Source: a virus. Taken from it: DNA of 40,287 nucleotides. Made by a program: the position numbers and the translations under genes. Numbering within the stretch: the first letter of the stretch is position 1; every line of letters starts with the position of its first letter. This document shows, piece after piece, positions 5,677 through 30,500 of the stretch. The notes under the pieces are model-generated. The model ran no database searches, was not told the DNA's origin, and was given only the letters and a program-made list of their open reading frames with translations. The DNA is taken from IMG/VR virus record IMGVR_UViG_3300022920_000015, positions 1 through 40,287 of that record; one strand, 5' to 3'.

Positions 5677-6078
5677 ATGAAAAAAAATGAATTAATAAAA
5701 CTAATAAGAGGTGCGGTTAGGGCTGAATTAAATGAGTCTTTGCCAAAAATGTTGTCCGAACTGATAAAAATAGAAACTACACCAAGTGTGATAAATGATT
5801 CAGTTGAGACTACAAAACAAATACTTAAAAATGTTCCATCGAAAAAAGTACCCACGAAGAGGTATAGCAATAACGAGGCACTAAATAAGGTACTGAACGA
5901 AACCGTGGGGGGAATTCCAACAGAAGGATCACGTGTAGGAAATCAACAGACCATGACCGACTTAAATGGAAATGATGTGGACATAAATGCTTTACCTGAT
6001 CACGTATCAAGTGCACTCACCAGAAATTATTCTGATGTAGTAAAACTTGTAGATCAGAAACGAGGGAACATTAAATGA
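5677..6078 (+). CDS. Small helical phage protein preceding gp25
   Basis: A 133-aa protein of unknown function. It opens with an amphipathic, basic helix (MKKNELIKLIRGAVRAEL), has a Lys/Thr-rich middle (KKVPTKRYSNNEALNKVLNE) and ends with LPDHVSSALTRNYSDVVKLV. It has no Cys, no membrane segment and no catalytic motif. A GAAAGGT ribosome-binding site lies at 5664-5670, suitably placed for ATG 5677. The stop overlaps the gp25 start (ATGA), so it belongs to the baseplate operon. By position it could be a baseplate accessory or assembly factor, but this is only inference. Confidence 0.7.
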   Translation: MKKNELIKLIRGAVRAELNESLPKMLSELIKIETTPSVINDSVETTKQILKNVPSKKVPTKRYSNNEALNKVLNETVGGIPTEGSRVGNQQTMTDLNGNDVDINALPDHVSSALTRNYSDVVKLVDQKRGNIK

Positions 6079-6461
6079 ATAAAGACATCCCACTTGGTAT
6101 CAGAATACCATATTCACGTGGTAGATCCGGTTTTTTCGACCAAACATATTCTGATATAGAACGTGCACATACCAATTTAAAAATGCTTTTGATGACGGCC
6201 AAGGGAGAACGACCCATGATGCCAACCTATGGAAGTGACTTAAGAAGTTTGTTGTTTAATCCAGCAGAAGAAGATTATGATGAACTACTTAAAGAAGCAG
6301 TGAGAGATGCAACCGAAAAGTGGATGCCAGAAGTGCTTGTTCTTAGTGTGGATATAACAAGAGATACATCAACTGCACCCAATTCAGCGACACTACAAAT
6401 TACATTTTCGTTAAGTTCAATACCTGACTCATACGAAAAATTAGAAATAGAGGTTTCATAA
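6075..6461 (+). CDS. gp25: Baseplate wedge protein gp25-like
   Basis: A 128-aa protein of the gp25/GpW family, a conserved small baseplate wedge component that sits at the sheath-baseplate junction and starts sheath assembly. The family signature is clear at residues 44-63: GERPMMPTYGSDLRSLLFNP, with the Pro-x-(Y/F)-Gly-(S/T) turn and the following amphipathic helix. The C-terminal half (EVLVLSVDITRD ... TLQITFSLSSIP) supplies the expected beta strands. Length is normal for the family (T4 gp25 is 132 aa). It overlaps the upstream gene by four bases (ATGA) and is followed two bases later by the gp6-like gene; a gp25-gp6-type neighbourhood is the rule in contractile tails. Confidence 0.93.
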   Translation: MNKDIPLGIRIPYSRGRSGFFDQTYSDIERAHTNLKMLLMTAKGERPMMPTYGSDLRSLLFNPAEEDYDELLKEAVRDATEKWMPEVLVLSVDITRDTSTAPNSATLQITFSLSSIPDSYEKLEIEVS

Positions 6462-6463
6462 AA

Positions 6464-8434
6464 ATGGCCAACGACACATATAAACAATCATCTGCAAGCA
6501 AAAAAGACATTAATTATACGGGTAAAGATTTCAATTCGTTTAGAAAAAACCTGATTGAATATTCAAAATCTTATTTCTCATCTACATATCGTGACTTCAG
6601 CGAGAACTCTACGGGAATGATGTTTATAGAACTCGCCAGTTATGTAGGTGATGTGTTGTCTTACTATATAGACCACCAATTCAAGGAGGGATTTTTACAG
6701 TACTCGTCAGAGAGAAAGAATATAATAAGTTTAGCAAATTATCTTGGATACAAGATAAGAACCTCTGTGTCAGCGACAACTGAGTTAGAGGTTTTTCAAC
6801 TCGTACCTTCAAAGGTGGGTTTAAACGGGAAAATGGAACCAGATTTAAAATATGCACTTAATATCCAAGAGGGTATGGAGGTTGCCTCATCTGACGGAAA
6901 CTCACCTCCATTTAGAACAATGTCTCAAATAAATTTTAATGAAGATAAAAAAGACTTTCCACGTGAAGTTAGTGTATATGAACGTGATTCAATTGGTCAA
7001 CCTACATTCTACATTCTTAAAAAACGATGTCTAGCAAGTGCCGGAACTTTAAAATCAAAAACAGTTAGAGTTGGTGAACCAACTGAATTTTTCGAGATTA
7101 CACTTCCTGATCAAGATGTAATAGAGATACTTTCAGTAGAGGACTCGTCTGGAAACCTCTACTACGAAGTTCCATATCTTGCACAAGATACAATTCCGAT
7201 AGAAGAACCAAACGATTATCGAAACAATCCAGTGTATTCAAAATACTCCGAATCAGTTCCATATATATTGAAGTTCATACGATCTTCTAAGAGATTCACC
7301 ACAATAGTAAATCCAGACAACACTACTACACTAGAGTTCGGTGCTGGAAGTGATAAATTTGATGATGAGATCATTATACCAAATCTCGATAACTTAGGAA
7401 AAACCATGAACTCTGCCAAACACCTAGAAACCAGCATTGATCCAAGTAATTTTCTAAAATCAAGTAGTTATGGAAGTTCTCCTTCTAATACCACACTCCT
7501 TGTAAAATATTATGTTGGTGGTGGTGTTTCGTCGAATGTTTCAGCAAACACGTTAAATACTATTCAAAGCATACAATTTCAAGAAACAACTGAGTATGTA
7601 GATCAATCAGAACAAGCATCAATCGACACGGTTAAGTCAAGTATACAGGTAAATAATCCACTACCTGCCGTGGGAGGAAAGTCCGCCGAAACTGACGAAG
7701 AAATAAGACAAAATGGACTTGCTTCGTTCTCCTCACAACATCGTGCAGTTACACGTGATGACTATGTAATACGAACGCTGTCTATGCCACCTAAGTTTGG
7801 GAGCATTGCAAAGGCATATGTATCCAAAGACGGAACTCTTGATACTCGTTCACAAACTAATATTTTTAAAGAAGCTTTTACGGACGAAGCGAAGACAACA
7901 CCGAACGGAATGAACATTGTGTATGGAGAACTTAACAATCCACTTGCTATTAATCTTTATGTATTGTCGTATGATAAAAACAACCACTTAATAAGACCGA
8001 ATGAGTTGATATTAAAAAACTTAAAAACTTATTTGGGTAAATATAGAATACTGACCGATGGTATTAATATTACGAATGCGTTTGTAATAAACTTTGGAAT
8101 AAACTTTGAAATATCAGTATTTGAAAACTTCAATAAAAAAGAAGTTTTAATTAATTGTATTAATGAAATTACGAATATATACACAACTGATAAAATTTCA
8201 ATTATGCAACCAATTGAAATTGGAGAAATAGAACTAAAACTAACAAAGATATCGGGTGTTCGATCCGTGGTTGATGTTGAAGTAGTAAATTTAACAACTG
8301 AGAATGGCAACTATTCCGAAAACGAATATGATATAGAGGCAGCTACATCGGGTAAAACAATATATCCGTCAATGGACCCTTCTATATTTGAATTAAAGTT
8401 CCCAAAGAAAGACATAATAGGGAGGGTTGTATAA
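6464..8434 (+). CDS. gp6: Baseplate wedge protein gp6-like (baseplate J family)
   Basis: A 656-aa protein, almost the length of T4 gp6 (660 aa). gp6/J proteins form the inner ring that ties wedges together around the hub. The N-terminus shows the family start (KDINYTGKDFNSFRKNLIEY, then MMFIELASYVGDVLSYYIDH). Residues about 397-436 carry the baseplate-J core (NPLPAVGGKSAETDEEIR, then HRAVTRDDYVIR), and the C-terminal third is alternating alpha/beta, ending with the GVRSVVDVEV type of strand. It starts two bases after gp25. Its stop overlaps the next start (TAATG), with a strong GGAGGG at 8421-8426 inside its 3' end serving the downstream gene. A firm assignment by motif order, length and context. 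Confidence 0.93.
   Translation: MANDTYKQSSASKKDINYTGKDFNSFRKNLIEYSKSYFSSTYRDFSENSTGMMFIELASYVGDVLSYYIDHQFKEGFLQYSSERKNIISLANYLGYKIRTSVSATTELEVFQLVPSKVGLNGKMEPDLKYALNIQEGMEVASSDGNSPPFRTMSQINFNEDKKDFPREVSVYERDSIGQPTFYILKKRCLASAGTLKSKTVRVGEPTEFFEITLPDQDVIEILSVEDSSGNLYYEVPYLAQDTIPIEEPNDYRNNPVYSKYSESVPYILKFIRSSKRFTTIVNPDNTTTLEFGAGSDKFDDEIIIPNLDNLGKTMNSAKHLETSIDPSNFLKSSSYGSSPSNTTLLVKYYVGGGVSSNVSANTLNTIQSIQFQETTEYVDQSEQASIDTVKSSIQVNNPLPAVGGKSAETDEEIRQNGLASFSSQHRAVTRDDYVIRTLSMPPKFGSIAKAYVSKDGTLDTRSQTNIFKEAFTDEAKTTPNGMNIVYGELNNPLAINLYVLSYDKNNHLIRPNELILKNLKTYLGKYRILTDGINITNAFVINFGINFEISVFENFNKKEVLINCINEITNIYTTDKISIMQPIEIGEIELKLTKISGVRSVVDVEVVNLTTENGNYSENEYDIEAATSGKTIYPSMDPSIFELKFPKKDIIGRVV
8421..8426 (+). 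promoter_or_regulatory. Strong ribosome-binding site (GGAGGG) for the 434-aa structural gene
   Basis: GGAGGG lies seven bases before ATG 8434, inside the end of the gp6-like gene. It is one of very few strong Shine-Dalgarno sequences in the window and settles the start of the downstream gene. Confidence 0.8.
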
Positions 8435-9738
8435 TGATTAAATTTATATATCCAACAGAATCTTGTACATTATACAGTAATTATGATATACTAAACACGG
8501 GTGCAGATGAAATATTAGAAGTTGCTTCTGATTTTACCCCAACTCGTGGTCCTATTATATCAAGGTCTCTTTTATTATTTTCCAACGAGAATATCTTATC
8601 AGACTTTAAAACAACAAACAGATACACCTTAAACCTAAAGATAGTACAAAGTTTAGAGTTGGAGTCGGATGTTGAACTTGAAGTATATCCGGTGTCTGAA
8701 AAATGGAATGCAGGAAAGGGTAGGTTTTCTGATACAGAACTATTGTATCCGGGTGCATCTTGGTTATATAAAAATAAAAACAAAGATACATGGACTACGA
8801 CCACACCAACCGAATATGACACAGGTGGGGGTTCTTGGTATGATAAATTTTATGACAATGAACTAGACGAAGAATCTATATTAGATTTTAAATTTAAGTT
8901 TGGAGAACTTGCTTCAGATGTAAAACTTGATATAACTCAACTTGTTTCTTTTTGGAATATGTCTGCTATTGATAATAACGGAATTATTTTAAAGTTTAAA
9001 AACGATACAACACAACGGTGTGGTAATGTAAAGTTTTTCTCAAAAAACACAAATACAATTTATCGTCCGTATATTGAAGTTGGTAGATATGACTATAAAT
9101 TTGAACCATATATTATCACAACGACCAAAAAAGAAATAGAACTTCAATCAGGATCACTAGACTCGGGATCATTAGACTCGGGATCACTAGACACAGGATC
9201 ATTAGACTCGGGATCATTAGACACAGGATCATTAGACACAGGATCATTAGACACAGGATCATTAGACTCGGGATCACTAGACTCGGGATCACTAGACACA
9301 GGATCATTAGAAGAATCTGTAATTAATACTACACAAACCAAATCACTTGAAAGTGACATAGTAGAGTTAAAAAGTAAAGACCTGCATATTTTTGTAGAAA
9401 ATATAAAAGAGTCATATTCAAAAGATGGGATTGAAAAAATGATGGTTGGTGTAAGGGAACTGACTCCTAAGAAAACTTTCTCAACTAGAATGAGATATAC
9501 TAGTCGCAATATTACTCAACTTGATTTGTTCTTTTCTGTGTTGGATGCCGAAACAGAAGAAGTGGTTATAGACTTTTCTGAGTTTACAAAAATATCATGC
9601 GACACAAACGGCCATTATTTTAATTTTGAATTTGGGTGTCTGTCTAGAGGTAGACTCTATAAATTTATTTTGAAATTAGAAACTGATGGTATTGTGAAAA
9701 AATACAATGACAAACTAACATTTATGATAACAAATTAA
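8434..9738 (+). CDS. Virion structural protein with DNRLRE-like N-terminus and Gly-Ser-Leu-Asp tandem repeat
   Basis: A 434-aa protein just downstream of gp6, so probably a baseplate or fibre-attachment component. Residues 1-230 look like a beta-sandwich of the DNRLRE type (LNLKIVQSLELESDVELEVYP ... TWTTT ... VKLDITQLVSFW ... IILKF), a fold often found on surface and virion proteins. Residues about 240-294 are a repeat linker of ten GSLD(S/T) units plus a degenerate GSLEE unit. The C-terminal about 130 residues form a second domain with Ig-like strand patterns (MRYTSRNITQLDLFFSVLD, GRLYKFILKLETDG). Start ATG 8434 has a strong GGAGGG seven bases upstream. I do not recognise a named T4 counterpart; by position it could replace gp7 or gp8, but no similarity supports that. 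Confidence 0.75.
   Translation: MIKFIYPTESCTLYSNYDILNTGADEILEVASDFTPTRGPIISRSLLLFSNENILSDFKTTNRYTLNLKIVQSLELESDVELEVYPVSEKWNAGKGRFSDTELLYPGASWLYKNKNKDTWTTTTPTEYDTGGGSWYDKFYDNELDEESILDFKFKFGELASDVKLDITQLVSFWNMSAIDNNGIILKFKNDTTQRCGNVKFFSKNTNTIYRPYIEVGRYDYKFEPYIITTTKKEIELQSGSLDSGSLDSGSLDTGSLDSGSLDTGSLDTGSLDTGSLDSGSLDSGSLDTGSLEESVINTTQTKSLESDIVELKSKDLHIFVENIKESYSKDGIEKMMVGVRELTPKKTFSTRMRYTSRNITQLDLFFSVLDAETEEVVIDFSEFTKISCDTNGHYFNFEFGCLSRGRLYKFILKLETDGIVKKYNDKLTFMITN
9151..9315 (+). repeat. 15-bp tandem repeat, ten units plus one degenerate
   Basis: Unit GGATCAYTAGAC followed by TCG or ACA, encoding GSLDS or GSLDT. Ten full units (9151-9300) and a diverged last unit (GSLEE, 9301-9315). The unit order by last residue is S,S,T,S,T,T,T,S,S,T. 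Exactly in frame, so unit gain or loss changes linker length by five residues without disrupting the protein. Every unit carries a GATC. Confidence 0.95.
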
Positions 9739-10334: not shown

Positions 10335-13300
10335 ATGACTGACATTTTACAACACACATTTGCATCTAAGTTTGACATTGATACTAACGTCTTACGATCT
10401 AGTAGTTTAGACTCATCTGACTTTAATAAAATAAAAGAAAGAGAGGTGTCTGGAGACTTATTCGGTGTAAACTCAAAGGATGCAATAGAGTTTTCGGCAT
10501 TTACACAAAACAACGAACTTATTGGTTGGAAGACCATACAACAGACACCAAATTATTCTACACGTGATGTATCATACTTAAATTCCGATGGAGTCATTGA
10601 AAGAAAAAACATATCTTACTTAAAGTCTTTATATCCAAAAACAAAAGATGGAAATGTATTAGTTTCACCGAAGTATGAGTTGAATCAACTTGGAATTATG
10701 CAAGGTGAGTACAAAGTAAGAATCTCATATAGAAACGACATAGTGGGTTCATTTGAGAACCCATACAAACTACAGATAAAAGAAATATCTGGATCAAGAA
10801 CTGAAATAAAGGCAGTAACTCAGTCTTTTAAAAATTCAAGAAACCCAAATCAAATTTCTTTCAATTTTGAATACGGAAACTTTTTAAACAAACAAGTTGT
10901 AGTTGCCCATGTAATAGAGAGGCTTAAAAATATACTCAAAAACAAAACATTTGTATCCGAACTCGAATCAAACGAATTTTCCAAAAAAACATCTGACTAT
11001 TCATTATATATAGACAAAGCAAAAACGTCTTTTTCTTTGACTGAGTTACAAATATTAAAAGAATTAGATTCAATATATACAAATCTAAAAGATACATATA
11101 AAAACTATCTATATGGAAGTTACAATGAAGTGTTTTCACAAAGTAGATTTTACACAGATTATATAAATTTAATTGATTATACACTGAACACCTTTTCACG
11201 ATTTGTCCAAGAGGATAATGCTGATTTAAAAATGTTCTACAAATATATGATGATACAGATGTTTGATGAAGACGAAGTTTCTAGTGTATTTAAAAAACGA
11301 TTTGATACATATCTTTTAAATGGAATGAACTTTGGCAACGGGTTGTTTGTTCCGTTTTTGAAATACACAAGTTATACAGATGAATCATTGTCAAGTGAAT
11401 CAAATGATGTTTTGTTAATAAAATTACTAACACCCTTAGATGAATCAATCACAGAAGATGTAAATTTTTATATATCACAGAACCCGTATTCGGATGATAT
11501 AGTAAAAAGCATTATACTCAGATCGTTGGTTGAAAAAAGTTCTACAACATTTAAGTTGAGGGGTCCTGATATATCAACAAAGTTAACTTCAAACGCAACT
11601 AAAAAGTTTTCACTTAGTGACGAAGAAGAATCTCAGTTATCAGAAGATGATGTAAATAGTGCAGAAAACCACTTTAAGACAACCAACACGGAAATAGAAA
11701 ATCTCAACATAGATTACTCTGACTTTAAAAACTTTGTTAAGTTTTCTTCTGCACGTGCAAGATTGGATAATTTTGTTTTAAAACTCACGAATATATCAAA
11801 ACTTAAATTCAAGATTCAAGAAACGGTTAGAAAAATAAATAAATTAAACAATGATGTGTCTGATGGTTTTCTGACTGCGATTGAGGCAAACCGATCAATT
11901 GAGATATTAAAAAATGAAGATATTAGAAAGTATAACGAAGGAATTGTTGAAATATTTAAAACATTTACTCCATATGATAAATTTCTATATTATGACAATA
12001 ATACCAGTTCGTGGCCACGTGAAACATCATTTAATATAAACGGATTCGATGGATCAACAGATGGTGCGAATGGTTTGTACAAATTACACGCATCTAGAAA
12101 ATACGACCTTGATAAAGTTTTTCTAAACGAAAATAACCATTCCTGGAAGATAATATGGGACTACACCGTTTCAAAGTGGAAATTATTTAATGAGGATACC
12201 GATATATTCATTTACTCGGGTACGGCAAACCTAAACTCAGGATTCTCTGCAAATGATAATAACAATATTGGATTTGCAAATCAATCATCTCTGTTTAAAC
12301 TCAGTTTACTCGAAGGGGAGTATACAGAGGGAACTGCGATATTTCCACCTGAACTAATTCCTACTAAGATAATTGACTTTCAGAAAAGTGATGGGTTTTC
12401 TTGGTATAAAAGTAAAGCAAAAGAAGCAGAGTTGCACGATAAATACAACGATGAGTCACTATACAATAGTTTACCCGAGTTTTTGGTAAGAACAAACGAA
12501 AACGAAGAGTTTACTCTGTTTTTGGGAATGATAGGAGAGCAGTTTGACATTCTTCATGTATATACAGAAAACATGACAGAAATGGCAAGTGCGAGAAACT
12601 CAATTAAAAAAGGAATTCCAAATCAACTAGTTTGGTTTGTAATGAACTCATTTGGAGTTAGACTGTCAGGAAGAACATCAGACCAACTTACAATTGGAAA
12701 GAAGTTTGAAGAAAATAGAGACATAGTTTGGCGCAGAGTTTTAAACAACTTACCCTATATTCTAAAAACATCAGGTACCGAAACCTCAATCCGTGCGTTG
12801 TTTAAGTGTTATGGAATTCCCGATTATCTATTTAGAATACGTGAATATGGAGGAATAAATTACAACACAGATTTAGACGAATCTGATACCAGTTTTAAAA
12901 TAGATACACTTGATTATGCATTGCAGATAAATCAATCCGACCAATATTTGGACATTCCTATAAACTTTGAAATTGGTGAAGAAAATGAAGCATCAATTGA
13001 GTTGAAACTCAGTGTAGGTAAAGAGTTTTTTGAAAATACTAATGACACAATAACATTTGAAAAACAAAACAGTGCAACATTACCTTCAAACATAGGAATT
13101 AGTGTTGGAATCGAAAGACTAATTGACTCCGATGATGACTATATTATTGGTTCTAGTAAACCTAAATTTTACACAAAAGGAAAAAATCAAGACTCGTTTA
13201 TTCCTGAAATGTGGAAAACAGAAAACTCGGTTATTGCGATATCTTGGAAAAATTTTAGAGAAGGGGTTTCATTTTCGTATCCAAAAGTAAACGCAGGAAC

Positions 13301-16300
13301 AGAACCTTCGTTTGTAACTATATATTCGGACCGGGGAAAATTGGAAGACGGAACATATGATCCATTGTATACTCTAGCAGAAATTGGTGCTCAAGACACA
13401 CTTAACGGCGAGGTGGTGAGGTTGTCATTTAGTTTCTCACAAGATCCCGATGCCACCAGTGGTGAATTTAGAAATGACGAGCATAATCTTGATTTTAGAT
13501 TTGAAGGAAGTGTCACTGGAAATCACTACACAATCAGTGAATTAAAACAAAACGGATATCTTAATAACAGTGGTTACTATTCTATTTTACAATCAAATAA
13601 AAACTGGGAATTCGGAATTCACCGAGATAGCACATTCAAAGAAGATTATGGAAAGTTTTATTTAAATTTTTATAATACCGATGGTATTCTTGTGTGTCCA
13701 AGTAAACTTTCTAATCCAATATACTTTGATGATAATGTTGAGTATGATATATTAATAACCAGCAAACAATCGAACATCAACACAGATTCTGTTATATCCA
13801 TGTGTGTAAAACGAATGTATGACTCAGCTGAAGTGTTTTCAAGTCAAGAAGATTTAGTAGTAACTAAGTACACCTCAAATAATATTATACAAACAAAAAA
13901 TTTATATTTTGGAAACTATAATCAACAGACGAACTTCAGAGGAACAATTGATAAACTTAGAATTTACACAACTGCTATCTCAGAAAAACGATTTATTGGT
14001 CACATAAATAACAATCAAGGTTACGACATTGATAACTACATTGAACTAGAAAGTGTGTTGCTTACTAAAATAAACTTTGATCATCCATATTCACTTATAT
14101 CTGAACAATCTGAGTCACCCACATCACCGATGGGGGTTGGTACTATAAAAAACTATGCATTATCCCCCCACAAACAAGATGTAATTGCATATAACTTTAC
14201 AAGCACCACATATCCATACCACTTCGTAGGAAAAAACAGAAGTGAGATTAGTAATCTTCCTGCAATGGGTGGAAAATCATTTAACAATGATAAAATACGA
14301 ATTGAGACCCAAGAAAAGGTGTCAGAACTAAATCCATACTCCCGTTCTACAAAAAAATCAAAGGACAGACACACGGTAGATTCAAACACACTTGGAGTAT
14401 ACTTCAGTCCCACGGATATAACGAATCAGGAAATCATCAGATTTTTCGGTCAGATTAATTTGGGAGAGTTTATAGGAAACCCACAAGAAACATATAACCA
14501 TTGTTACAAAAAACTAGAGGGATTGAGAAAGATATTTTTTAAACATGGTTTTGGAAAACTTGATATTCAAAAATACTTTAATCTAATTAAGTCTTATATT
14601 GATCCATCTTTATTTGAAAATTTAGAAAAGATAGTACCTGCTAGAGCAAATTTAATATCAGGATTATTAATCGAACCGTCTCTGCTTGAAAGACACAAAA
14701 TACCACCACCACGTATACAGTCTACATCTTGGATAGACTTGGAAGATAATGCACACTCGGATAAAGAAAAAATAACTGAAATTTTAAATATTAATTTTGA
14801 TCTGGGTTTATCTAATAGGAACATAGCAACCTTTGGAAACGAACGCACATACCTCATAAATAAAAAAGCAGACTATAAAATAACACACGACTCAGACATT
14901 AAAGTTTTTAAAAACGAATCTGAGTTTACATTTGACTACAACTATTGTGGAAAGTTGGTAGGTGAAGATATTACAGATTCTACACGGGATATATTTACAG
15001 TCCACGGAATTACAGAGCAAAAAGGAAAACTTTTTAAGGTCGAAAAAATAAAAGAAAAGAAAACAATAGGAGTTCAGTATACAGGTAAGTTGGTAAACTA
15101 TGATATATTTTTTAATGACGGAATTCAGATTTCGGGATTTACAGATGGAATGGAAACTGCAAATGGAATATACGAATTTAAATTCAAAGGAACTTCTGGT
15201 TTTCCTGTATTTACAAATCAAAGTAGAATGTGGTGGGTCTTCTATTCCTCCCTCAAGATGAGGTGGATCATTGCATCAGACAACACAATTGACGGTGGTA
15301 AGTATTTGGCACTAAACCAAGGTAGACAATATGAAAACTATACTTGGGTTGGGGGTAATAAGATAGCAGATAGCAATACACACACACCAGAGTGGTTCAG
15401 CACCGGATTTAATAACTCAATTCAATCAGACAATTTACCACAACGAGACGTGGACTATTTTGGTCGTGTTAATTTTATTTCAAAATATGATAGATTCATC
15501 GAGTGTGATGCATATATACACGGGTGGGTTAATGCAGAATTATACGGAATTTACAAGGGTGAGTTAACCGAACGGGTTTTCTCAGATGAGTCCGGTTTTA
15601 AAAACATAAGCAAACCCAGTGATAATTACACATTTTCTGGAGATAAAAAATATGTATTTTTAAACGGAAATTTTAAGGGTAAGTTACAAAACGGATGGGT
15701 GGGTAGTGATCAAATTCAACAAACTGAATCGGATAAAAATATTAGAGTAGTTGGTTTTTTTGATGGAAAAAAATACGAATCGTGTGACAAACCATACTAC
15801 ACATCGGGATTAATCAATTCATTGGTTAGTTTTGATAATCGTGACAAGTTGGTTTTTGATTTTAGAAACTACAGTAGCAACCAAGTTAGATTTTCTTCTA
15901 AAAACTTTGACAATGTAAATTTAGTAAAAATACCAAACTCTTTGAACTATTCAAATGATGTCAACTTTAAGTTTATATCAGACTATAATATAAAAAATCA
16001 AGGAATTTCCGACGTAGTTGATTTGAGTAGTGGTCAAGTTAAAAAGAAACACATACACAAAACAACTGACATATTTTACTCACCTGATGTATACGACATA
16101 TCCGTTACACACGATATAAAACTAAAAACAAACTCAATTCTAAAAATACAATTTTTGGCTAAAGGAATAAATTTTAAAGTAAACAGAAATGTGACGGTAA
16201 GGATTAATGAATGTAATCTTAAATTTAATTTTCATAAAAATGAATACAAAAATTGTGAGATAATAAGCAGAGGAAATAATTTTCAACCTGGATCGGTGTA

Positions 16301-19300
16301 TAACCAACAAGGAGAAAAGATAAAAACAAATACTCGTAACTTGATTAAAAACATTAAAGAAAGTGTAAATTATATTTCAAATGAAAAAACTATAAATAAT
16401 TTTGAAAAAAATATTCTAACAAAAGAAGATTATAGTTTAGTTTATGTGGGTGAGTCACTTGATAATTTTGACTTTATGTTTTTAATATCACTCGAATCTA
16501 CATCGGAAGTAACTTCCAACTTAAAGTCTGAAAACTTTTTTCAAAATACATTAATTACACGACAAACAAACGAAACACAATTCCAACCCACACCCATGCA
16601 TACAAACAATATACCACAATTTGTTAGGGGAATTGACTTAATTAAAAATGGAATGGGGTATACTGGACAGGAAGAGGTAGAAATATATGGAAACCGACCT
16701 GCTAACTGGAAGTCATCTTGGCCACAGAAGATAAAGGCATATAAACTATTTAACATAGACACTTTATCAGGACAAATAACAGGAATAAAACCAGATAACT
16801 TTTTAATCACGGGAATAAATTGGATTACAGACAACACTATAACATTTAATGACACACCAAAAATAAAGATTGAAAATCCAACTACCGATTCACGATATAC
16901 AAAAAAAGAAAAAGCAGAACTAAGAATTATTACAGGAGAACCAACACCGGCCGTAAGTTCAGTCGTAACACTTCAAAACTATGTAGACTTAGAACTTGGT
17001 GATACAATTGGAAAATCACTAAGTTCTGCGAATATGTATTTTGAAGGACGTGATTCGGTAAAATATGACACAGGATTAATACACACCAAAAAAATTAACA
17101 TACAAACTTCGGAAAAAACATCAAGTAAAAGATTAAACGCAACCGAAGTTATAGTTTTTTCTAACGAGTCTATTTTAGATTTTGAATTATATTTAGACGC
17201 AAAAATAAAAGAGGTAATGCGTTCTGATGTATGTGGAAACGAAACACCGATTTCGTCTGATACATATGAAGTTCAAATTACAAATTTCTATGAAGAAGAT
17301 GGAGACATAGATTATGGAATTACATACACCAAGAACAGAGAACTTGTAAATAATTTCTTTGTAATCTTAAACGAAGAAAAAACATCAGAAATCGGTGAAT
17401 TCATATCAGATGAACAATATGTAAATAAAATATCCAAGATAAACGATAATAAATACTCTGATGGATATGTTAGGATAAATGGGTTCACTGCCAAACAAGC
17501 TTCGGCAAATGGTGTATATAGATTTAGAAATGACATTTCATATTGTGATAAGTTTGATGCATACAATATTCCAATTCCGACTTATACAAACGAAAACAGA
17601 GAGTGGATTATAACCTACGATGACGACATCAGAAAGTGGAAACTCAGAAATATTAAAAATTTAAATTTTATAGTTTCAAATACAAAATATTTAGAAGACG
17701 GATTTCTTGCAAATAAAAATAATAACCAAGGGTTTTATACAGGAAAAGAAGTATTGGTTAATTCTGATAATACGGTTGATCAAAATGGGTTTGTTTACGA
17801 TACATCTAAACAAATAATAGGTAACAAGTTTCAAGAAGCAAATGTATCGGTTAGCAACAGATTCAAAATAGTTCCCAACAAATTACTATTTAAACTTGAA
17901 AAACAAAATTTTAATAACTTTTTAATTTGGAAAATTAATATTAAATCCAAAACAAATAATAAATTCATCTATGAAATACCACTTGTTTATATAAACTCAG
18001 ATTCACAAGATGAATTATTTTTAGATAAATACAATAGTATAGAAAATAAGTTAAAATTGCTTGATATAATGCAATATCAAGAAACAAGTGCTTGTAATTT
18101 AAATTTTCAAAATGCAATAGTTTGGAAACTAAAATCAACCAATGAGCAGAGTGGTGAATTTTCAAATAGGTCGAAAATCAATACACAGGGATTGACGCAC
18201 TTAAATGCAACCTGCTTTTCCAAAGATAAAAATTCTTTTTTAGGTGGACGATATTCGTATGTTGTAGATAAAATTATAAACGAAAATAGTTCTGTTGTTG
18301 AATTTTCTAGACTAAATCGTGCTTGGAAACTGAAAACACTATCCAGAGATGTTAGTTTATTGATGAATAATAAGTATCCAAGGTGTGGGGTATATAAAAC
18401 TACAACAAAAAATATATATGGTATATGTGAATACAAAACTGCGGATGGCAACGGAAATCTGGCAATTGAACTTAGAAACTTAACGGATGAGTATGAGGGA
18501 GCAAACGGAGTTTATTATTCATATGGATATCTAGAAACGGGTGAATATCTTTTTAGAAACAATAATTCAAATTGGTTATTCCACACATCCAATAACGGAG
18601 AAACGTGGGAACTTAGAAATGACAGACTACACCCCACATTAACAATAGAACAACATAGTCAAGTTGACCAGGTGGGGGTATATACAAATACGTCAGAAAC
18701 TTTGAAATTTTATATAAATTTTGAAATCGATTTTATTTTTGAAGATACACGTGACTTTTTAAATGTAGATGTTGAATCTCTTCGTTTAAAAAGTGATATT
18801 GGTGGGTTACTCGTTTACAACAAAACAGGATACGAAAAAAATATTTCAGATGATATGAAGTTAACGGTTGAAGTCGGTGTGGTAAATGCTGAAAAAATAT
18901 CTAAATATTGGTCATCAATTCCATGTAAAACCGAACGAAGTGTGAGTGATTTTTATACTCATAATAACCTGTTTCTTAAATCAAAAAACGAAGTGTATGT
19001 AGACGAGGGTGGTTTTGATAAATTTAAATTAAATTTTATTGTAGAAAACTCAAAAGATATTCTTCATACAGATGTTGAATATGATACTGATCTAAGTCAA
19101 CACTCAAACGACATACCTCATGTTATTGAAAATTTCTACGACAATAGTTTTAAAACCAATGTTAAATATAAAGTGGGAGACCGGGTGTATCACAATGATT
19201 TAATGTGGGAATGCAAGAAAGACATTCCTGACAATAGAAGTGTAATACCAGGAGTTGACTTTGATACAGGTAACCATTGGAAAATATATAGCAACAACTA

Positions 19301-21410
19301 TACTAAACTGTGTGTTACCTCAACTATAAATGTTAAAAAGAAAAAATACAAAGACCAGAGTATAATTGATTATCACGACTTTGAGTTTTCTAGTGAGTTT
19401 GTTGAAATATTTAAATCACAAAATCAATTTAACTTTGGGGTTGATAAAAGTGTATTGTGTTTCTCTAATAAAAAGTATTTAGTAGAAAAAGAATATTTAC
19501 CATTTGATTTAGCACATATAGGTACTACCAAAAACATAGTTTCGCATGGTAGATTAAGAACACACACAGAAAATAGCTATAATAGAAATCTTGGTGTTTC
19601 TAGTAATGGCAACGAAACAACAATTGACACTTCAACTGGATATGTATGTGGAAAACCTTCAATCGTAAGAACATATAAAAAATCAGACCAACGAAAAACG
19701 GAGTATGAAAAAGACTCATTTTGGTTTAATCAAGATAAAAAACATATTAGGCAAAGTGAACCAAGTTTGGTTTACGAAAAACCAGAAACTGATCCAATCA
19801 TATCTTTTAAATTTGAAAACCACGACACATTACGGGATATTACATTAAAAGTTACGAACTTCAATTCAAACGAAACCGAAGAAGCAAACGGAGTGTACAC
19901 CAAAATTAATCGTTCATATAATAATACTCATGTATTTGAAAATGAAAATGGGTACTTTATATACAAAACTGATGAGTGTTGGGTGATGCAAAAATCAAAT
20001 AAATTTAATGATTTACAATTTTTAGAAAATGTGGGGTATGACTATACTACAAGTGAAGCAAAACGAATTGGTGATGATTTAAATGGAAATTTTGGTAGCA
20101 GTTCAAATTTTTCATCCCAAATTGGATTAATAGAAATAATATCTAATAATATAATTGAAAAAACTCCAACACCGACTCCTGAGCAAACTCTAACACCAAC
20201 TCCAACCTCAACACCCACATTACATTCAAACGAATCTCCTGAGACACCTGAGGGTATATTAACACCGTCCCCAACACCAATCACCACACCAACTCCTGAG
20301 ATCAATGATGTTACACCAACACCACAAGATACATTTCAAGTTGATAATGCGTTTTTATTTGAATATGGTGACTTTGCGATTACAACTAAAAAATATGATT
20401 TATCAAAGAACCCACACTTAACAGAGTTAGAAATAGCAGAGGACTTGGACGAACAGAGAATAGTTATTTCGGGTATTATGTCAGTTGAAGAAATACAAGA
20501 CCGAGAAGAAATGCTATCAGACATACCGGATATTGCTAAAAACTTTGGAATGAGTGTTTCAAACTATACGAAGATGATCGATGGAATGATTACGTCGGAA
20601 AATATAAACCAGTATGGTTGGGATTCTAGTAATGTACATACAAATGGTAAATTTAGAGCATTTTATATGTCAAAAAATCAGATGGGTCTTTTACACAAAT
20701 ATGACAACCAACATCTATTTGCAGATTATGGATACTTCATTAAAAGTTGGATTGGTGCCAGACATATAGCAGTAAAAGTACTAAATCAGATTGATCCTGT
20801 TACTGAACTAACAGCCACAACAGGACTACCGGAGGGTGTGTTGTTGTCGTGGAAACCATCGTATAGTGCAAGTTACTTACGAATAGAAGCACAAAATGAA
20901 AACACGACTGAGTGGGTAGTTGTTGCTGACAACATTTCGCAAATAAGAGTGACCGATGGGTATCTCGATTCATCACTTGACCTTAATGAAGAAAGAAAAT
21001 ACAGAGTTATATCAATTGGGGTGTCTGGAAAAGAAACGACGTCAGCAACTACAATTGGGTGGAAGTTGGGAATTCCAGATTCACCTTCATTTTTGAATGC
21101 ATCATACGGAAAATATTCTAATAAAATAGAACTTTCTTGGGATGGGAGTTCACTAAACTCCCAATTCAACAAATCGGAAAGTTTTACAATTCTTAGATCA
21201 GAGACTAATGAATTTGAAGATTTTTCAACTTATGTTGCAATTGCAAATAATATCAAGGAAACTACATATACCGATATCGGTAATTTAAACCCCACTTTGA
21301 TATATTGGTATGTGGTTGTTTCTAATAATGAAAAAACAAAAATATTGACGGAGGATGAGTTTAATAAAAAAGAAAACTGGTCAACCTCGGTGGCGGGTAA
21401 ATTATCATAA
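10335..21410 (+). CDS. Giant baseplate/tail-fibre protein (3691 aa), multidomain adhesin-like
   Basis: One uninterrupted 11-kb frame. Residues about 722-842 contain a block I associate with large tail/baseplate proteins of marine myoviruses (FTLFLGMIGEQFDILHVY, RRVLNNLPYILKTSGTE, IRALFKCYGIPDYLFRIREY); a related piece follows at about 1409-1462 (PSLFENLEKIVPARANLISG, IEPSLLERHKIPPPR). Between them is a LamG-like domain (about 870-1230) interrupted by one copy of a 147-residue domain that is tandemly repeated in the other giant protein. Five copies of an ANGVY module lie near residues 565, 1596, 2379, 2709 and 3171. A chitin-binding-like module (YKVGDRVYHNDLMWECKKD) is at about 2942-2986, a Thr-Pro linker at 3277-3330, and two fibronectin type III domains at about 3486-3668. 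Likely a virion-surface, host-recognition protein; exact tail position is inferred from context after gp6. Confidence 0.8.
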   Translation: MTDILQHTFASKFDIDTNVLRSSSLDSSDFNKIKEREVSGDLFGVNSKDAIEFSAFTQNNELIGWKTIQQTPNYSTRDVSYLNSDGVIERKNISYLKSLYPKTKDGNVLVSPKYELNQLGIMQGEYKVRISYRNDIVGSFENPYKLQIKEISGSRTEIKAVTQSFKNSRNPNQISFNFEYGNFLNKQVVVAHVIERLKNILKNKTFVSELESNEFSKKTSDYSLYIDKAKTSFSLTELQILKELDSIYTNLKDTYKNYLYGSYNEVFSQSRFYTDYINLIDYTLNTFSRFVQEDNADLKMFYKYMMIQMFDEDEVSSVFKKRFDTYLLNGMNFGNGLFVPFLKYTSYTDESLSSESNDVLLIKLLTPLDESITEDVNFYISQNPYSDDIVKSIILRSLVEKSSTTFKLRGPDISTKLTSNATKKFSLSDEEESQLSEDDVNSAENHFKTTNTEIENLNIDYSDFKNFVKFSSARARLDNFVLKLTNISKLKFKIQETVRKINKLNNDVSDGFLTAIEANRSIEILKNEDIRKYNEGIVEIFKTFTPYDKFLYYDNNTSSWPRETSFNINGFDGSTDGANGLYKLHASRKYDLDKVFLNENNHSWKIIWDYTVSKWKLFNEDTDIFIYSGTANLNSGFSANDNNNIGFANQSSLFKLSLLEGEYTEGTAIFPPELIPTKIIDFQKSDGFSWYKSKAKEAELHDKYNDESLYNSLPEFLVRTNENEEFTLFLGMIGEQFDILHVYTENMTEMASARNSIKKGIPNQLVWFVMNSFGVRLSGRTSDQLTIGKKFEENRDIVWRRVLNNLPYILKTSGTETSIRALFKCYGIPDYLFRIREYGGINYNTDLDESDTSFKIDTLDYALQINQSDQYLDIPINFEIGEENEASIELKLSVGKEFFENTNDTITFEKQNSATLPSNIGISVGIERLIDSDDDYIIGSSKPKFYTKGKNQDSFIPEMWKTENSVIAISWKNFREGVSFSYPKVNAGTEPSFVTIYSDRGKLEDGTYDPLYTLAEIGAQDTLNGEVVRLSFSFSQDPDATSGEFRNDEHNLDFRFEGSVTGNHYTISELKQNGYLNNSGYYSILQSNKNWEFGIHRDSTFKEDYGKFYLNFYNTDGILVCPSKLSNPIYFDDNVEYDILITSKQSNINTDSVISMCVKRMYDSAEVFSSQEDLVVTKYTSNNIIQTKNLYFGNYNQQTNFRGTIDKLRIYTTAISEKRFIGHINNNQGYDIDNYIELESVLLTKINFDHPYSLISEQSESPTSPMGVGTIKNYALSPHKQDVIAYNFTSTTYPYHFVGKNRSEISNLPAMGGKSFNNDKIRIETQEKVSELNPYSRSTKKSKDRHTVDSNTLGVYFSPTDITNQEIIRFFGQINLGEFIGNPQETYNHCYKKLEGLRKIFFKHGFGKLDIQKYFNLIKSYIDPSLFENLEKIVPARANLISGLLIEPSLLERHKIPPPRIQSTSWIDLEDNAHSDKEKITEILNINFDLGLSNRNIATFGNERTYLINKKADYKITHDSDIKVFKNESEFTFDYNYCGKLVGEDITDSTRDIFTVHGITEQKGKLFKVEKIKEKKTIGVQYTGKLVNYDIFFNDGIQISGFTDGMETANGIYEFKFKGTSGFPVFTNQSRMWWVFYSSLKMRWIIASDNTIDGGKYLALNQGRQYENYTWVGGNKIADSNTHTPEWFSTGFNNSIQSDNLPQRDVDYFGRVNFISKYDRFIECDAYIHGWVNAELYGIYKGELTERVFSDESGFKNISKPSDNYTFSGDKKYVFLNGNFKGKLQNGWVGSDQIQQTESDKNIRVVGFFDGKKYESCDKPYYTSGLINSLVSFDNRDKLVFDFRNYSSNQVRFSSKNFDNVNLVKIPNSLNYSNDVNFKFISDYNIKNQGISDVVDLSSGQVKKKHIHKTTDIFYSPDVYDISVTHDIKLKTNSILKIQFLAKGINFKVNRNVTVRINECNLKFNFHKNEYKNCEIISRGNNFQPGSVYNQQGEKIKTNTRNLIKNIKESVNYISNEKTINNFEKNILTKEDYSLVYVGESLDNFDFMFLISLESTSEVTSNLKSENFFQNTLITRQTNETQFQPTPMHTNNIPQFVRGIDLIKNGMGYTGQEEVEIYGNRPANWKSSWPQKIKAYKLFNIDTLSGQITGIKPDNFLITGINWITDNTITFNDTPKIKIENPTTDSRYTKKEKAELRIITGEPTPAVSSVVTLQNYVDLELGDTIGKSLSSANMYFEGRDSVKYDTGLIHTKKINIQTSEKTSSKRLNATEVIVFSNESILDFELYLDAKIKEVMRSDVCGNETPISSDTYEVQITNFYEEDGDIDYGITYTKNRELVNNFFVILNEEKTSEIGEFISDEQYVNKISKINDNKYSDGYVRINGFTAKQASANGVYRFRNDISYCDKFDAYNIPIPTYTNENREWIITYDDDIRKWKLRNIKNLNFIVSNTKYLEDGFLANKNNNQGFYTGKEVLVNSDNTVDQNGFVYDTSKQIIGNKFQEANVSVSNRFKIVPNKLLFKLEKQNFNNFLIWKINIKSKTNNKFIYEIPLVYINSDSQDELFLDKYNSIENKLKLLDIMQYQETSACNLNFQNAIVWKLKSTNEQSGEFSNRSKINTQGLTHLNATCFSKDKNSFLGGRYSYVVDKIINENSSVVEFSRLNRAWKLKTLSRDVSLLMNNKYPRCGVYKTTTKNIYGICEYKTADGNGNLAIELRNLTDEYEGANGVYYSYGYLETGEYLFRNNNSNWLFHTSNNGETWELRNDRLHPTLTIEQHSQVDQVGVYTNTSETLKFYINFEIDFIFEDTRDFLNVDVESLRLKSDIGGLLVYNKTGYEKNISDDMKLTVEVGVVNAEKISKYWSSIPCKTERSVSDFYTHNNLFLKSKNEVYVDEGGFDKFKLNFIVENSKDILHTDVEYDTDLSQHSNDIPHVIENFYDNSFKTNVKYKVGDRVYHNDLMWECKKDIPDNRSVIPGVDFDTGNHWKIYSNNYTKLCVTSTINVKKKKYKDQSIIDYHDFEFSSEFVEIFKSQNQFNFGVDKSVLCFSNKKYLVEKEYLPFDLAHIGTTKNIVSHGRLRTHTENSYNRNLGVSSNGNETTIDTSTGYVCGKPSIVRTYKKSDQRKTEYEKDSFWFNQDKKHIRQSEPSLVYEKPETDPIISFKFENHDTLRDITLKVTNFNSNETEEANGVYTKINRSYNNTHVFENENGYFIYKTDECWVMQKSNKFNDLQFLENVGYDYTTSEAKRIGDDLNGNFGSSSNFSSQIGLIEIISNNIIEKTPTPTPEQTLTPTPTSTPTLHSNESPETPEGILTPSPTPITTPTPEINDVTPTPQDTFQVDNAFLFEYGDFAITTKKYDLSKNPHLTELEIAEDLDEQRIVISGIMSVEEIQDREEMLSDIPDIAKNFGMSVSNYTKMIDGMITSENINQYGWDSSNVHTNGKFRAFYMSKNQMGLLHKYDNQHLFADYGYFIKSWIGARHIAVKVLNQIDPVTELTATTGLPEGVLLSWKPSYSASYLRIEAQNENTTEWVVVADNISQIRVTDGYLDSSLDLNEERKYRVISIGVSGKETTSATTIGWKLGIPDSPSFLNASYGKYSNKIELSWDGSSLNSQFNKSESFTILRSETNEFEDFSTYVAIANNIKETTYTDIGNLNPTLIYWYVVVSNNEKTKILTEDEFNKKENWSTSVAGKLS
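13161..13590 (+). repeat. Single copy of the SWKNFREN domain, apparently inside a LamG-like domain
   Basis: About 145 residues (PKFYTKGKNQDSF ... ISWKNFREGVSFSYPKV ... TLAEIGAQDTLNGEVVRLSF ... GSVTGNHYTISELKQ) that match the eight tandem copies at 26995-30710. Flanking sequence on both sides (ASIELKLSVGKEFF before; GTIDKLRIYTTAISEKRF after) reads as the two halves of one LamG/concanavalin-like sandwich. Confidence 0.85.
19158..19292 (+). other. Chitin-binding-like (CBM5/12 type) module in the 3691-aa protein
   Basis: Segment with the spacing Y-K-x-GD-x-V-x-(H/Y)-x(3)-WEC ... P ... HWKIY, typical of small carbohydrate-binding modules with exposed aromatics. The resemblance is by motif only. 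It would fit glycan binding by a host-recognition protein. Confidence 0.45.
20163..20324 (+). repeat. Thr-Pro-rich linker in the 3691-aa protein
   Basis: Encodes about 54 residues of TPTP-type sequence (TPTPTPEQTLTPTPTSTPT, TPSPTPITTPTPE). It separates the large N-terminal part from the C-terminal fibronectin type III pair and is the same linker style as at the left edge of the window. Confidence 0.9.
20790..21340 (+). other. Two fibronectin type III domains at the C-terminus of the 3691-aa protein
   Basis: First domain: VTELTATTGLPEGVLLSWKP, with YLRIEAQ and KYRVISIGVSG strands. Second domain: SPSFLNASYGKYSNKIELSW, with FTILRSE and YWYVVVSNN. Both show the Trp in strand B and the Tyr in strand F typical of FnIII, a common decoration of phage tail proteins. 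Confidence 0.8.
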
Positions 21411-21417
21411 AGTAAAC

Positions 21418-24501: not shown

Positions 24502-27500
24502 GTGATAAAAGTATTAAAACTATCAAATAAGTCGGTTACACGATTTAATACTAATAAAAAATGGAATTATAGTACACTTGATTCTGGTAGCAATATAGTC
24601 CTAGAGCAAGGTGATGATATTCCATTATTTTCGTCTGCGACAAACAAATTATCAACAGAACAAAATAACTCTGAGTTTAAGTTGAATATGAGGGTCGGTA
24701 AAAAAGTGACTGGTACTTTTTTCTCAAAAGACAGTAAACACTATAATTCAAAAAACGAACCTTTGAATTATGACGGTTCATATCAACGGGTTGTATATAA
24801 CAGTGTAAAGCATTTATTCTACAACGACTACGGAACGATTGGAGATACTGAAAACGATCATCACTACAAAAACCCAATGAACATTTTCGGAAGTGAAACT
24901 GGAATCTATTCACCACAAAACTTTAATTCAAACACACTTGAAGTAGATAAAAGAAGCGAACGCAGAATATTGAAAGATGAGGTTACCGTTCTTGAGATTC
25001 CGGCTGGGGTGTTTGGTGAAAAAATAAAACCGGGTACGTTAAAAATAATAGATCATAGCTCTGAATATGAATCGATAGAAATTGTTGATGATGGAAACAC
25101 CAACTTAGTTGTGGGGTCTGATACCTTTAATAGTATATCTGAATTAAACTTGAATTCGTTTTTTAGTTCAATATCTGAAACATCATCTGTAGATAGTAAG
25201 ATAACTATTGATTACACCGATTTGTCGTATGGATATGCAGTTGACTCACACGGAGACTTCTTAGTCACCGGAGCTCCCATATTATCAACATCTCCCTCAG
25301 AGAACCAATCGGGTCGTGCATCTTTGCATAAATTCAATACAACAACTAAGCAACATGAATTAGTAAAAAACTTTTATTGTCCATTTACACAAAATGGAAT
25401 TGCACAAGAAAACAGAAATGATAATTGTCAGTTTATAATAACAGAGTTGGATGATGTTATATCAACCGAAGATTTTTTGGTAAATGATAACTTTGGAAAA
25501 TCTGTTTCAATTAACGAAACGATATGTGCAATAGGATCTCCTATGTCACATATAAATGGAAGAAACAACGATCAACCAACTGGTCATGTTTTTATTTATG
25601 AAAAAGATAAAGGTGGAAAAGAAAATTGGGGGATTGTAAATGTATTTGAAGGAACACCTGACTCTGAGTTTGGAGCTTCTATCTCAATTGATAAAGATTT
25701 TATAGCAATTGGATCACCCAATTTTGACAATGGAACAGGATGTGTTTATTTATTCAAAAAAACAAAAAGAACAAAAAAACATCCCTGGATCAAGACATCG
25801 TCTGTGTACGATTCGTACAAATGGAATGATGTGTTATCCAAATACGAAGGAGTTCCGACTCAAAACACAGAGAAGTATTCCAAGTATCTAAAAGAACGTG
25901 ATAGAATCGTTTCACATCGGATTTCAAAAACAATCAAAGAACTTAAAAACGCAAGAGATGCAGGAATTATGTCAGATGTAGAATATGGCCAACGTGTACC
26001 AACAAAAGACGATTATAGTGAGGTATTTCCATATAACTATTTATATACGGACAATAATCAAGATTGTGATAATAAATCTGTAAATTGGTATAACCAAAAA
26101 ATATGGAGCAAGAATACTCATCCAGCAACTCGTTGTCAATTTTCTGAAACTGAAAAAAACTTTAAGAAATCTGTTTGGCCTGGATATATGACAGATGAAA
26201 AAACTGACCTATATCTACCAAATCCTGATCACGAACAAAACAAAGATAACAAGTGGGCATATCGTTGGAAACTGCAAAATGTTGAGGGTGGTGCGGAGTC
26301 AATTCATTTATTTGGTGAAGAAACCATGTGTGAGTTAGAAGAAGTATCCATGTTTTCAGACTCGGAACTGAACTCATTCGGAGATGATAGTGGGTTTCCG
26401 TTGACAGAGTATTCGGAAACACCAAGAGAATCAATCGGTGATACAACATTTGATTTGGTGGGAACTATAAAGTCACCTGATTTGAGCAGTAAACGATTTG
26501 GTGAGAAGGTAGTTATTAAAGGAAACAAGTTATATGCGTCAACATACTCAACTGATCTGCCACGATGTTATATGTTCACCAAAACTACAAATAAACATGG
26601 TTGTGAGGTATGGGACTTAAAAAATACAATAACTGAAACAGAGTTGGTAGGGCATACATCTGAGTCATATGTAGATGAAACGGCTTTCAAGTCGGCAGAA
26701 ATAAACCACTATGACACATACTTTGATATTAAGGTGTGTCCAAATACACAATCCAACTCAGAGTCAAGTGGAGTGGATGTATACGATAATTGGATATACA
26801 GTTTTGATCAACCTATTTTGAATTCGGAGTATAAAATACAAGGTGGGGTGAGGGTTAACAAATGCGACTCTATATGTAAAGACTTTAACACATATAAATA
26901 CTACTCAAGGTTTGGAAAGATAAACACAAATCTATCAGCGCAGATACCTGCCAATTACGGAACATCTGTAGATCTACCTATGTTAGACACATCTGCAAAT
27001 TTTTTTAGTAAACCTGAGTTAGCAGATTCGTTTTACCACCCGTCCGAAAACTCAACTGGAGTATCGTGGAAAAATGCAAGAGAAAACGTTTCGTTTGTAT
27101 ATACAAATGTTGAACCTGGAACTTTTCCAAACTTCATGACGATATATTCAAACGAAGCTAAACAAGAGGACGGAACATACGATCCAATTCACACACTGAT
27201 AGAAATCGGTGCACAAGAAACTCTGAATAACAAACCTGTTAGATTAATAATAAACAGTGGACTTGGTGACATAGAACACTTTTATGAATTTTTATATCGT
27301 GGGTCAATAGAGGGTACTCATTACACAATAAATGAACTCAAACAATCAGTAGACTTTGACTGCACCCTCCCTCCGAACAACGGACATTATGAAATAATTT
27401 CTAATGAAAATTTCGTAGATTCACTTGGCAATAAACCAAATGCAAAGTTTTTCTATAACACAGAAAGTGATTCTACATACTCCGAACCGTGGACATCCGA

Positions 27501-30500
27501 TGGCACATTAAGTATCGGGTGGAAGAACTTCAGAGAAAATGTATCGTTCTCTTACCCTTCAGTTGTTAAAGGAAAAGAATCATCTACAATGAAGGTGTAT
27601 TCAAATAATGCTAAAAATTCAGATGGGTCGTATAATCCATTGAATATATTAGCAGAAATTCATGCACAAGAAACACTTGAAGGTGAAACTGTCAGACTTA
27701 CATTCAACACGGGATTCACCAATGATGTGGAGTACTATTATGACTTTATATATCGTGGATCGGCAACTGGTACTCAATATACATTAAATGAACTTAAAAC
27801 ATCATTGGATTATAGTTGTACTCTACCACCAAACCAAGGTGAATATATTCAAATTTCAGAAGACAAGTTTACGGACCCACTTGGTGGAAAACTACCTGCA
27901 TATTTATTTTCCAAAGGAGAAACTACACCGTCTTATATACAACCTTGGTGTGGTGAGAACACAATAGGGTTATCCTGGAAAAACTTCAGAGAGAATGTAT
28001 CTTTTTCATACCCCAATGTCAACAGTGGTAAACTTCCTTCATTCATGGCAATTTATGCAAATGAAGCAAAACAGGAGGATGGATCACATGACCCAAGATA
28101 CATCTTAGCAGAAATAGGTGCTCAAGAAACTTTAAACGGAGAAATGGTGCGACTTACATTCAACACTGGATTCGTTGGGGGTGACGAATATTATTATGAA
28201 TTTATTTATCGTGGTTCAATTGAAGGTACGCACTTTACACTAAATGAACTTAAAGAGGTATGTGATTCTGAATATGCCGAGACAAACATAAACTCAGGAA
28301 CAATTCGATATATCAATGATTATGAAAATTTGAATATATTCAAAAAATGCCGACTTCCAAAGTTTTATTCAAAATCAGAAAATCAACTTTCATATGTTGA
28401 ACCATATTCATCTGACGAAACGCAAGCAATTTCATGGAAGAACTTCAGAGAAAATGTTTCATTTTCATATCCAAACATAGACTCTGGATCTGAACCGAGT
28501 TTTGTAACAATATATTCAGATGGAGCAAAACGATTAGATGGATCGTATGATCCTGTTTATATGTTGGCAGAAATTGGTGCTTCCGATGCAATGAATGGTC
28601 AGGTTGTAAAACTCTTTATATATGCTGATAATTGTAAAAATGATAAAACTAAAGTCTATGAGTTTATATATAAAGGATCAGTTGAGGGTTCTCACTATAC
28701 CCTCGGTGAATTAAAAAATAAACTCGACTACGATTGTACACTACCTCCTAATATGGGAACTCCCGTTTTGCTAACAACAATAAACCCAATTGCAAATGAA
28801 AACTCGTTGCTTTTTAGTAAACCCACAGGAGGGTTATCATATACAGAACCTTACTCATCTGACAACTCAATGGGGTTGTCATGGAAAAACTTCAGAGAGA
28901 ATGTATCTTTTTCTTATCCTGATGTATCCAGAGGCAACCACCCTTCATTCATGGCAATTTATGCAAATGAAGCAAAACAGGAGGATGGATCACATGACCC
29001 AAGATACATCTTAGCAGAAATAGGTGCTCAAGAAACTTTAAACGGAGAAATGGTGCGACTTACATTCAACACTGGATTCATTGGGGGTGACGAATATTAT
29101 TATGAATTTATTTATCGTGGTTCAATTGAAGGTACGCACTTTACACTAAATGAACTTAAACAATCATTAGATTTTGATTGCACACTTCCTGCGAATATGG
29201 GTGGTTATATCTCTATCTCAGATAGTGAATTCAGTGATCCTCTTGATAACAAAACCAGAGCAAAGTTTTTCTCAAAGAATGAAGATGGAGTTTCATATAC
29301 GGAACCCTGGATGGATGACGACGTAATTGATATTTCGTGGAAAAATTTCAGAGAGAATGTATCATTTTCGTATCCAAGTGTGAAAAAAGGAAATACACCA
29401 TCTGTAATGACAATATATGGAAATGGTGCGATTCAACTAGATGGAACATACAATCCAATGTGTATACTTGCAGAAATCGGTGCACAGGAAACTTTAAACG
29501 GAGAGTTGGTCCGTCTGACATTAAATTCGGGTTCGGTTGATGGAGAGGAATATTACTACGACTTTATATATCAGGGTTCATTGGGTGGTACTCACTATAC
29601 AATCAACGAACTAAGAGAGTCAGTTGAGTTTGAGTGTATGTTATCACCAAACCAAGGAACATCAGTTTCCTTGTCAGATATAAAATTTGATGACTATTTA
29701 CTAAACTCCAATGGTGCAAGGTTTTATACAAAAAATAAGAATCAAAGTTCATATAAACAAAACCCACATATTGATGAGATTTCAATTGGTTGGAAAAACT
29801 TCAGAGAGAATGTATCATTTTCCTACCCAAGTGTAAGATCGGGATCAGAACCTAGTTTCATGACAATATATGCAAACGGTGCCAAAGACAAAAACGGTAA
29901 CTATGATCCAATAAAAACTCTAGCAGAAATAGGGGCGGAAGATTCTTTAAATGAACATACAGTTAGGTTGACGTTTAATTATGGGTCCGAAACTGACGAT
30001 GAGTTTTATTACGAATTTATCTACAACGGTTCGTTGAATGGAACGCACTATACACTCGGTGAACTTATGGAGCACAACTTACTAAAACTAGTAGAATCAA
30101 CATCACATATTCAAAAAAATAAATCTGATAAAAATAATAGATTTTATGTTGAAAAACTTAGAAATGAAGTAGTACATCAAGTCAAACCTCATGATGTTAA
30201 TTTAATTACAAGTGATGTAAATACAAAAATTAAAAAAATAAAATCGTTTGGAATGTTGCCCAATAACTATGGTCACGCAGACACACTTAGAACTCAACTT
30301 ACAGATGATATACTACAATCGTCTAATCAAATTACATTTTATAGTATGGGTGATAATAATACACCATACACACAACAAAGTGGATTAAAAGATGAGATAT
30401 CGATCAGTTGGAAGAACTTCAGAGAAGGTGTCAGTTTCTACTATCCAACTATTTCAAAAAAAACATCTGATCTGAGTGAGTGTTCTATGAGTGTATATAT

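Follow-up and report, generated by a model that had tools for sequence, protein, structure and literature searches.

A phage repeat domain of an undescribed family, predicted to be nested within LamG in a giant protein of the baseplate region

A giant gene in the viral record IMGVR_UViG_3300022920_000015 encodes a single copy of a domain that is repeated in a second giant gene, and this copy is flanked on both sides by stretches resembling a LamG domain. The question raised by this locus is whether the repeat was inserted into one LamG fold or is an ordinary bead between two domains and, if it was inserted, how often this happened and from which source. The window, i.e. the whole stretch of DNA analysed here, has a length of 40,287 nucleotides, and the following features define the setting of the giant protein.

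10335..21410, plus strand: giant tail/baseplate-region protein P0001, an open frame of 3691 aa that hosts the nested domains
6075..8434, plus strand: baseplate-wedge genes, gp25-like (6075-6461) and gp6-like (6464-8434), which set the locus context
11970..12854, plus strand: first part of the conserved core, up to the REYGG motif, defined by tblastn hits, alignment and tree and common to the Mel-JY01, LR756508 and immuto proteins
14454..14729, plus strand: second part of the conserved core, EFIGNP...VPARANLISGLLIEP, present in homologues; its approximate ends were computed from an anchor position

The gene at 6075-6461 matched Pfam GPW_gp25 (E 7.5e-14) and the gene at 6464-8434 the PHROGs baseplate wedge (E 3.7e-15). 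Both are located upstream of the giant gene with two genes in between, and the homologue of the giant protein in Flavobacterium phage immuto likewise has gp25 and gp6 neighbours. For the core of the giant protein no convincing match was obtained among solved structures, Pfam and PHROGs, and a weak Tail_P2_I match was seen in one of the 26 members of the core family (E 0.18). Therefore, the label of a baseplate protein is derived from gene order: the position beside gp25 and gp6 homologues is shared with T4 gp7 and P2 gpI and suggests a baseplate component at about their place. Several other features were recorded in the window. Gene 8434-9738 contains an in-frame array of 15-base repeats (GSLDS/GSLDT; 9119-9341) with a Pentapeptide_2 match, the gene next after the giant gene (21355-22314) encodes an unbroken LamG domain scoring 35.9 bits, above the Pfam cut-off, and PT-rich repeats of ACTCCAACACC units are present at 3-177, in a frame already open where the window begins, and at 20149-20299, close to the C-terminal end of the giant protein. 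Downstream genes at 34614-40229 look like DNA metabolism genes (RuvC-like, primase-like, SbcD-/SbcC-like) by translations judged by eye.

The copies of the repeat domain are found in two places of the window.

13071..13550, plus strand: inserted repeat domain, residues ~913-1072, one of nine copies, with the start motif LPxNxG; it folds alone in the model
26944..30696, plus strand: eight-copy array of paralogues in P0002, the second giant protein (24502-33912), defined by repeat matches

With the single copy as query, the eight array copies were recovered at E values from 2e-16 to 1e-37, with identities to the single copy of 41-56% in the search matches and 37-52% in the alignment, and common ancestry of the copies is evident at this level of sequence similarity. 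The window total is nine copies, one in 10335-21410 and eight in 24502-33912, and the description of the giant-gene copy as the ninth in the earlier note holds for this window; relatives with longer contigs have a tenth copy, in a third gene that lies further upstream than this stretch reaches. An LPxNxG-type motif, which reads TLPSNIG at residues 915-921 of the giant protein, opens every unit of the repeat family, and a near-invariant WKNxRE core is found within the domain. When the lone domain was modelled by itself (pLDDT 86.8, pTM 0.84), its first strand started at residue 913 and its closing helix was placed at residue 1072. Based on the start motif and on these strand and helix limits, the insert was assigned to approximately 13071-13550. 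The earlier note had located the copy correctly and misjudged its limits, which it gave as 13161-13590 (residues 943-1085). The stretch GISVGIERLI (residues 921-930), counted there as part of the first LamG half, belongs to the repeat unit, this half ending at about residue 904, and the second half begins at about residue 1080 (YYSILQSNKNWEFGI) and not at GKFYLNF (residue 1106). The start of the whole feature at 12946 was one base out of frame, giving 19 stops on translation, and 12945 is in frame. Besides the array, the second giant protein carries FG-GAP repeats (E 5.9e-15) and, near its C-terminus, two dockerin-type stretches (E 1.3e-6), which are unusual company for a phage protein.

The stretches on both sides of the insert were delimited as follows.

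12891..13046, plus strand: first LamG segment, residues ~853-904, TLDYALQINQSDQYLDIP...ASIELKLSVGKEFFEN, defined by the insert-free LamG profile and the model strands
13572..13982, plus strand: second LamG segment, residues ~1080-1216, defined by the insert-free LamG profile and a sub-threshold match to Pfam Laminin_G_3

An AlphaFold2 model of residues 841-1251, computed with 51 related sequences (pLDDT 84.8, pTM 0.84), was in line with the earlier proposal of two halves of one domain, as both flanks are predicted to make a single LamG/pentraxin-like sandwich and not two independent domains. In the comparison with VIA-align, 176 residues over model positions 19-410 were aligned with positions 13-212 of PAPP-A (Z 16.1, 2.9 A) and 171 model residues with positions 1-186 of serum amyloid P (SAP; Z 14.7). 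Because these alignments span both ends of the model, the two segments with the insert between them match one continuous domain of 200 residues. By the model, the host domain has the single jelly-roll sandwich fold of the LamG/ConA-like lectin superfamily; it is like the LamG/pentraxin-like members of the ConA superfamily (PAPP-A, SAP, CRP) in fold, with Z scores of 14-16, but unlike them it is broken by a 160-residue domain.

In addition, a LamG profile was built from 14 insert-free relatives. In insert-bearing proteins the match to this profile is split into two successive pieces adjoining at the insertion site, e.g. with profile positions 5-61 followed by 59-229 in L022, and in L024 and L022 the profile positions 5-60/61 correspond to model residues 6-61/64. 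In the window protein, profile positions 62-229 were aligned with model residues 243-411 (138 bits), so that the match of the second segment carries on to residue 1251 (14087), and the first piece had the same start with 34 bits and an alignment extending into the insert; this run into the insert, of low accuracy, was seen in both the window protein and L001. Since the first-piece alignment of the window protein enters the insert, the position of the junction, at about residue 904, relies on L022 and L024 together with the model strands. Insert-bearing and insert-free proteins aligned globally with MAFFT were not used for the junction, as in the insert-free rows the opening strand of LamG was placed on the last strand of the repeat, and the alignment for the structure model was made without insert-free N-terminal fragments.

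Homologues with an empty site are numerous. The same core is found in the proteins of Microcystis phage Mel-JY01 and of LR756508, where a LamG domain (read by eye) occupies the same place and has no insert, the core of Flavobacterium phage immuto is free of LamG, and the IMG/VR relatives L130-L153, at 35-52% identity, have LamG without the insert. Of 99 distinct sequences that cover the region completely, 88 are insert-free and 11 have the insert, so the earlier suggestion to search for homologues lacking it was rewarded with LamG domains intact at the same place. The distance from REYGG to the PAR motif is 146 aa without LamG, 383-499 aa with LamG and 582-696 aa with LamG and insert, this spacing being longer by about 160 aa when the insert is present. 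In a tree built from the part of the core that precedes LamG, the 13 insert-bearing rows are found on one side of a branch with support of 100/99, and a single insert change is required compared to a shuffled mean of 11.4. In a tree of the C-terminal half of LamG the insert-bearers again group together as a single clade (98/98), whose sister groups resemble those of the core tree. Both trees were rooted at the midpoint, with long-branch warnings among distant rows. Since the insert-bearers form one clade on both trees, a single gain of the insert is supported by the sequences, and since the clade and its neighbours in the LamG tree resemble those of the core tree, LamG was apparently not swapped in together with the insert.

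These data also bear on other histories of the region. If the flanks were separate domains with the repeat as an ordinary bead between them, it would be understood why Pfam sees LamG in the C-terminal flank alone, and weakly (Laminin_G_3 at 18-21 bits compared to a cut-off of 27.6), and finds no family for the first flank; insert-free relatives are sub-threshold as well, and the splitting of the domain lowers the Pfam score. However, the model is one sandwich that is matched whole by single continuous LamG/pentraxin domains, and the flanks are joined in the insert-free homologues, whose profile splits at the insertion site, leaving this arrangement with next to no credibility. Phage tail genes often recombine, and the LamG domain with its insert might have arrived as one piece from a different phage and taken the place of a plain LamG domain; yet the C-terminal half of LamG recovers the same insert clade with neighbours similar to those in the core tree, and the scans performed detected the repeat domain in no further phage family, which makes such a replacement very improbable. 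The same low standing is given to an ancestral insert that was repeatedly lost in other clades. The midpoint rooting of the trees would leave room for it, but the insert is absent from the neighbouring clades and from all relatives further away, and several independent clean losses at one loop would be needed.

The preferred reading, to which a probability of roughly 0.85 is assigned as a whole, is that the domain was inserted once, in the ancestor of this clade of environmental tailed phages, into the LamG loop between the strands ASIELKLSV and YYSILQSN. The LamG domain itself is an extra lobe in the core after the REYGG motif, and therefore the layout is that of a domain in a domain in the core. 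The inserted copy is paralogous to the array of eight copies that the second giant protein gained in this lineage. It is likewise paralogous to the C-terminal copy in the third gene, which is also present in insert-free sisters.

Regarding the identity of the inserted domain, no convincing family was found in Pfam, NCBIfam or PHROGs and no convincing sequence match among solved structures, and its fold had no match at E 0.001 among PDB and viral structures. The best Foldseek hit of the lone domain had an E value of 0.41, some Ig-type chains being among the non-significant hits, and with VIA-align no chain reached Z >= 2, an unusually empty list that does not establish a new fold. Weak sequence hits to transketolase, Nop5/56 and the pentapeptide protein QnrS were rejected as chance or composition. 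The unit is a self-contained, beta-rich domain in the model, and it belongs to an undescribed family. The Ig-like domains of tailed phages are portable accessories on several kinds of virion protein. The repeat domain is like them in occurring as a portable accessory in several proteins, but differs in the lack of an Ig-family match in sequence or fold and in its occurrence, so far, in one phage group; among the Pfam matches listed for 69 repeat copies there was no Ig family. Of the earlier proposal of a portable domain nested in another fold without breaking it, as Ig-like decorations are in other phages, the nesting agrees with the model and the empty-site homologues, and nothing found here shows an Ig-like nature.

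In order to trace the origin of the domain, IMG/VR was scanned with the repeat alignment, and 30 loci were obtained, all within this phage group. They represent three settings: one copy in the LamG domain of P0001, the array of P0002 orthologues, which comprises 5-8 copies in complete orthologues, and the C-terminus of a protein of about 750 residues. The third gene (~710-820 aa; L218-L226, L227-L231) carries one C-terminal copy, also in phages without the LamG insert and the array, and its protein from L220 had no match in Pfam or PHROGs. No relative was detected among INPHARED phages by tblastn with one repeat copy, and none of 107 pattern matches in GTDB genomes was confirmed. Five insert-free sisters (G006, G011, G012, G015 and G017) have exactly one copy each, in the orthologue of the third protein. 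In the insert-free sister records searched, no array copies were found, and their P0002 orthologues are open frames of 1289-1482 aa, under half as long, with a range of 1379-1482 aa in the five sisters just named; absence in the remaining sister records says little, because these are fragments. As five insert-free sisters carry the copy in the third gene and none in an array, the C-terminus of the third protein is probably the oldest known home of the domain. Both the LamG insert and the array were acquired along the lineage that gave rise to the insert clade. In the repeat tree, the LamG copies form one clade (99/88), as do the third-gene copies (99/94), and the LamG clade is located beside or among the array copies on a poorly resolved backbone. 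These results support a spread of the domain within the genome that is ancient and common to the whole clade. Accordingly, the intragenomic transfer proposed before is retained as a spread within the genome and abandoned as a recent event in this genome.

Comparisons between phages gave 51-93% identity for the insert, and in most pairs it is at least about as conserved as its host LamG domain. Its dN/dS values of 0.06-0.17, given where computable and with dS saturated in some pairs, show purifying selection. Functionally, a surface-displayed accessory domain seems the likeliest: the insert would be displayed on the tail surface and add weak, many-copied contacts, for which the host surface and neighbouring tail proteins are about equally probable partners. 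A competing idea, to which we give a little less than an even chance, is that the domain is mainly cement, its copies in three proteins binding each other or the baseplate and stiffening the tail without host contact. The occurrence of the domain in three separate genes within these phages, the near-invariant WKNxRE core and the purifying selection on the insert would fit this role, but such conservation would also fit a ligand site or fold stability. Beyond the surface-displayed accessory, a new fold acting as a general module for surface attachment, which went from one ancestral copy to ten over three virion proteins, including the insertion of a domain in a domain in the core, is conceivable but rather unlikely.

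Among the papers listed by the literature searches, no description of this repeat-domain-in-LamG arrangement was found. The evolved Dit proteins of siphophages have a carbohydrate-binding module within the galectin domain (PMC9437275), and these insertions may be regarded, by analogy, as the nearest described parallel in kind (PMC9437275). Both systems have a foldable extra domain in a beta-sandwich loop of a tail-tip protein, directed outward (predicted in the present case), which is present in some relatives and absent from others. In contrast, the host fold is LamG here, the gene comes after gp25/gp6, and the inserted domain, from an undescribed family, has paralogues in two further genes of these phages. 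With this work, a phage domain family is defined that is absent from the family libraries searched and has a confident model without a convincing match among the known structures compared. Reconstructions of domain insertion usually start from two end states. In these related phages one can see the site both empty and filled, along with paralogous copies and a probable older home, and therefore the timing and the source of the insertion are testable, while each acquisition, that of the LamG insert and that of the array, can be checked against many relatives without it.
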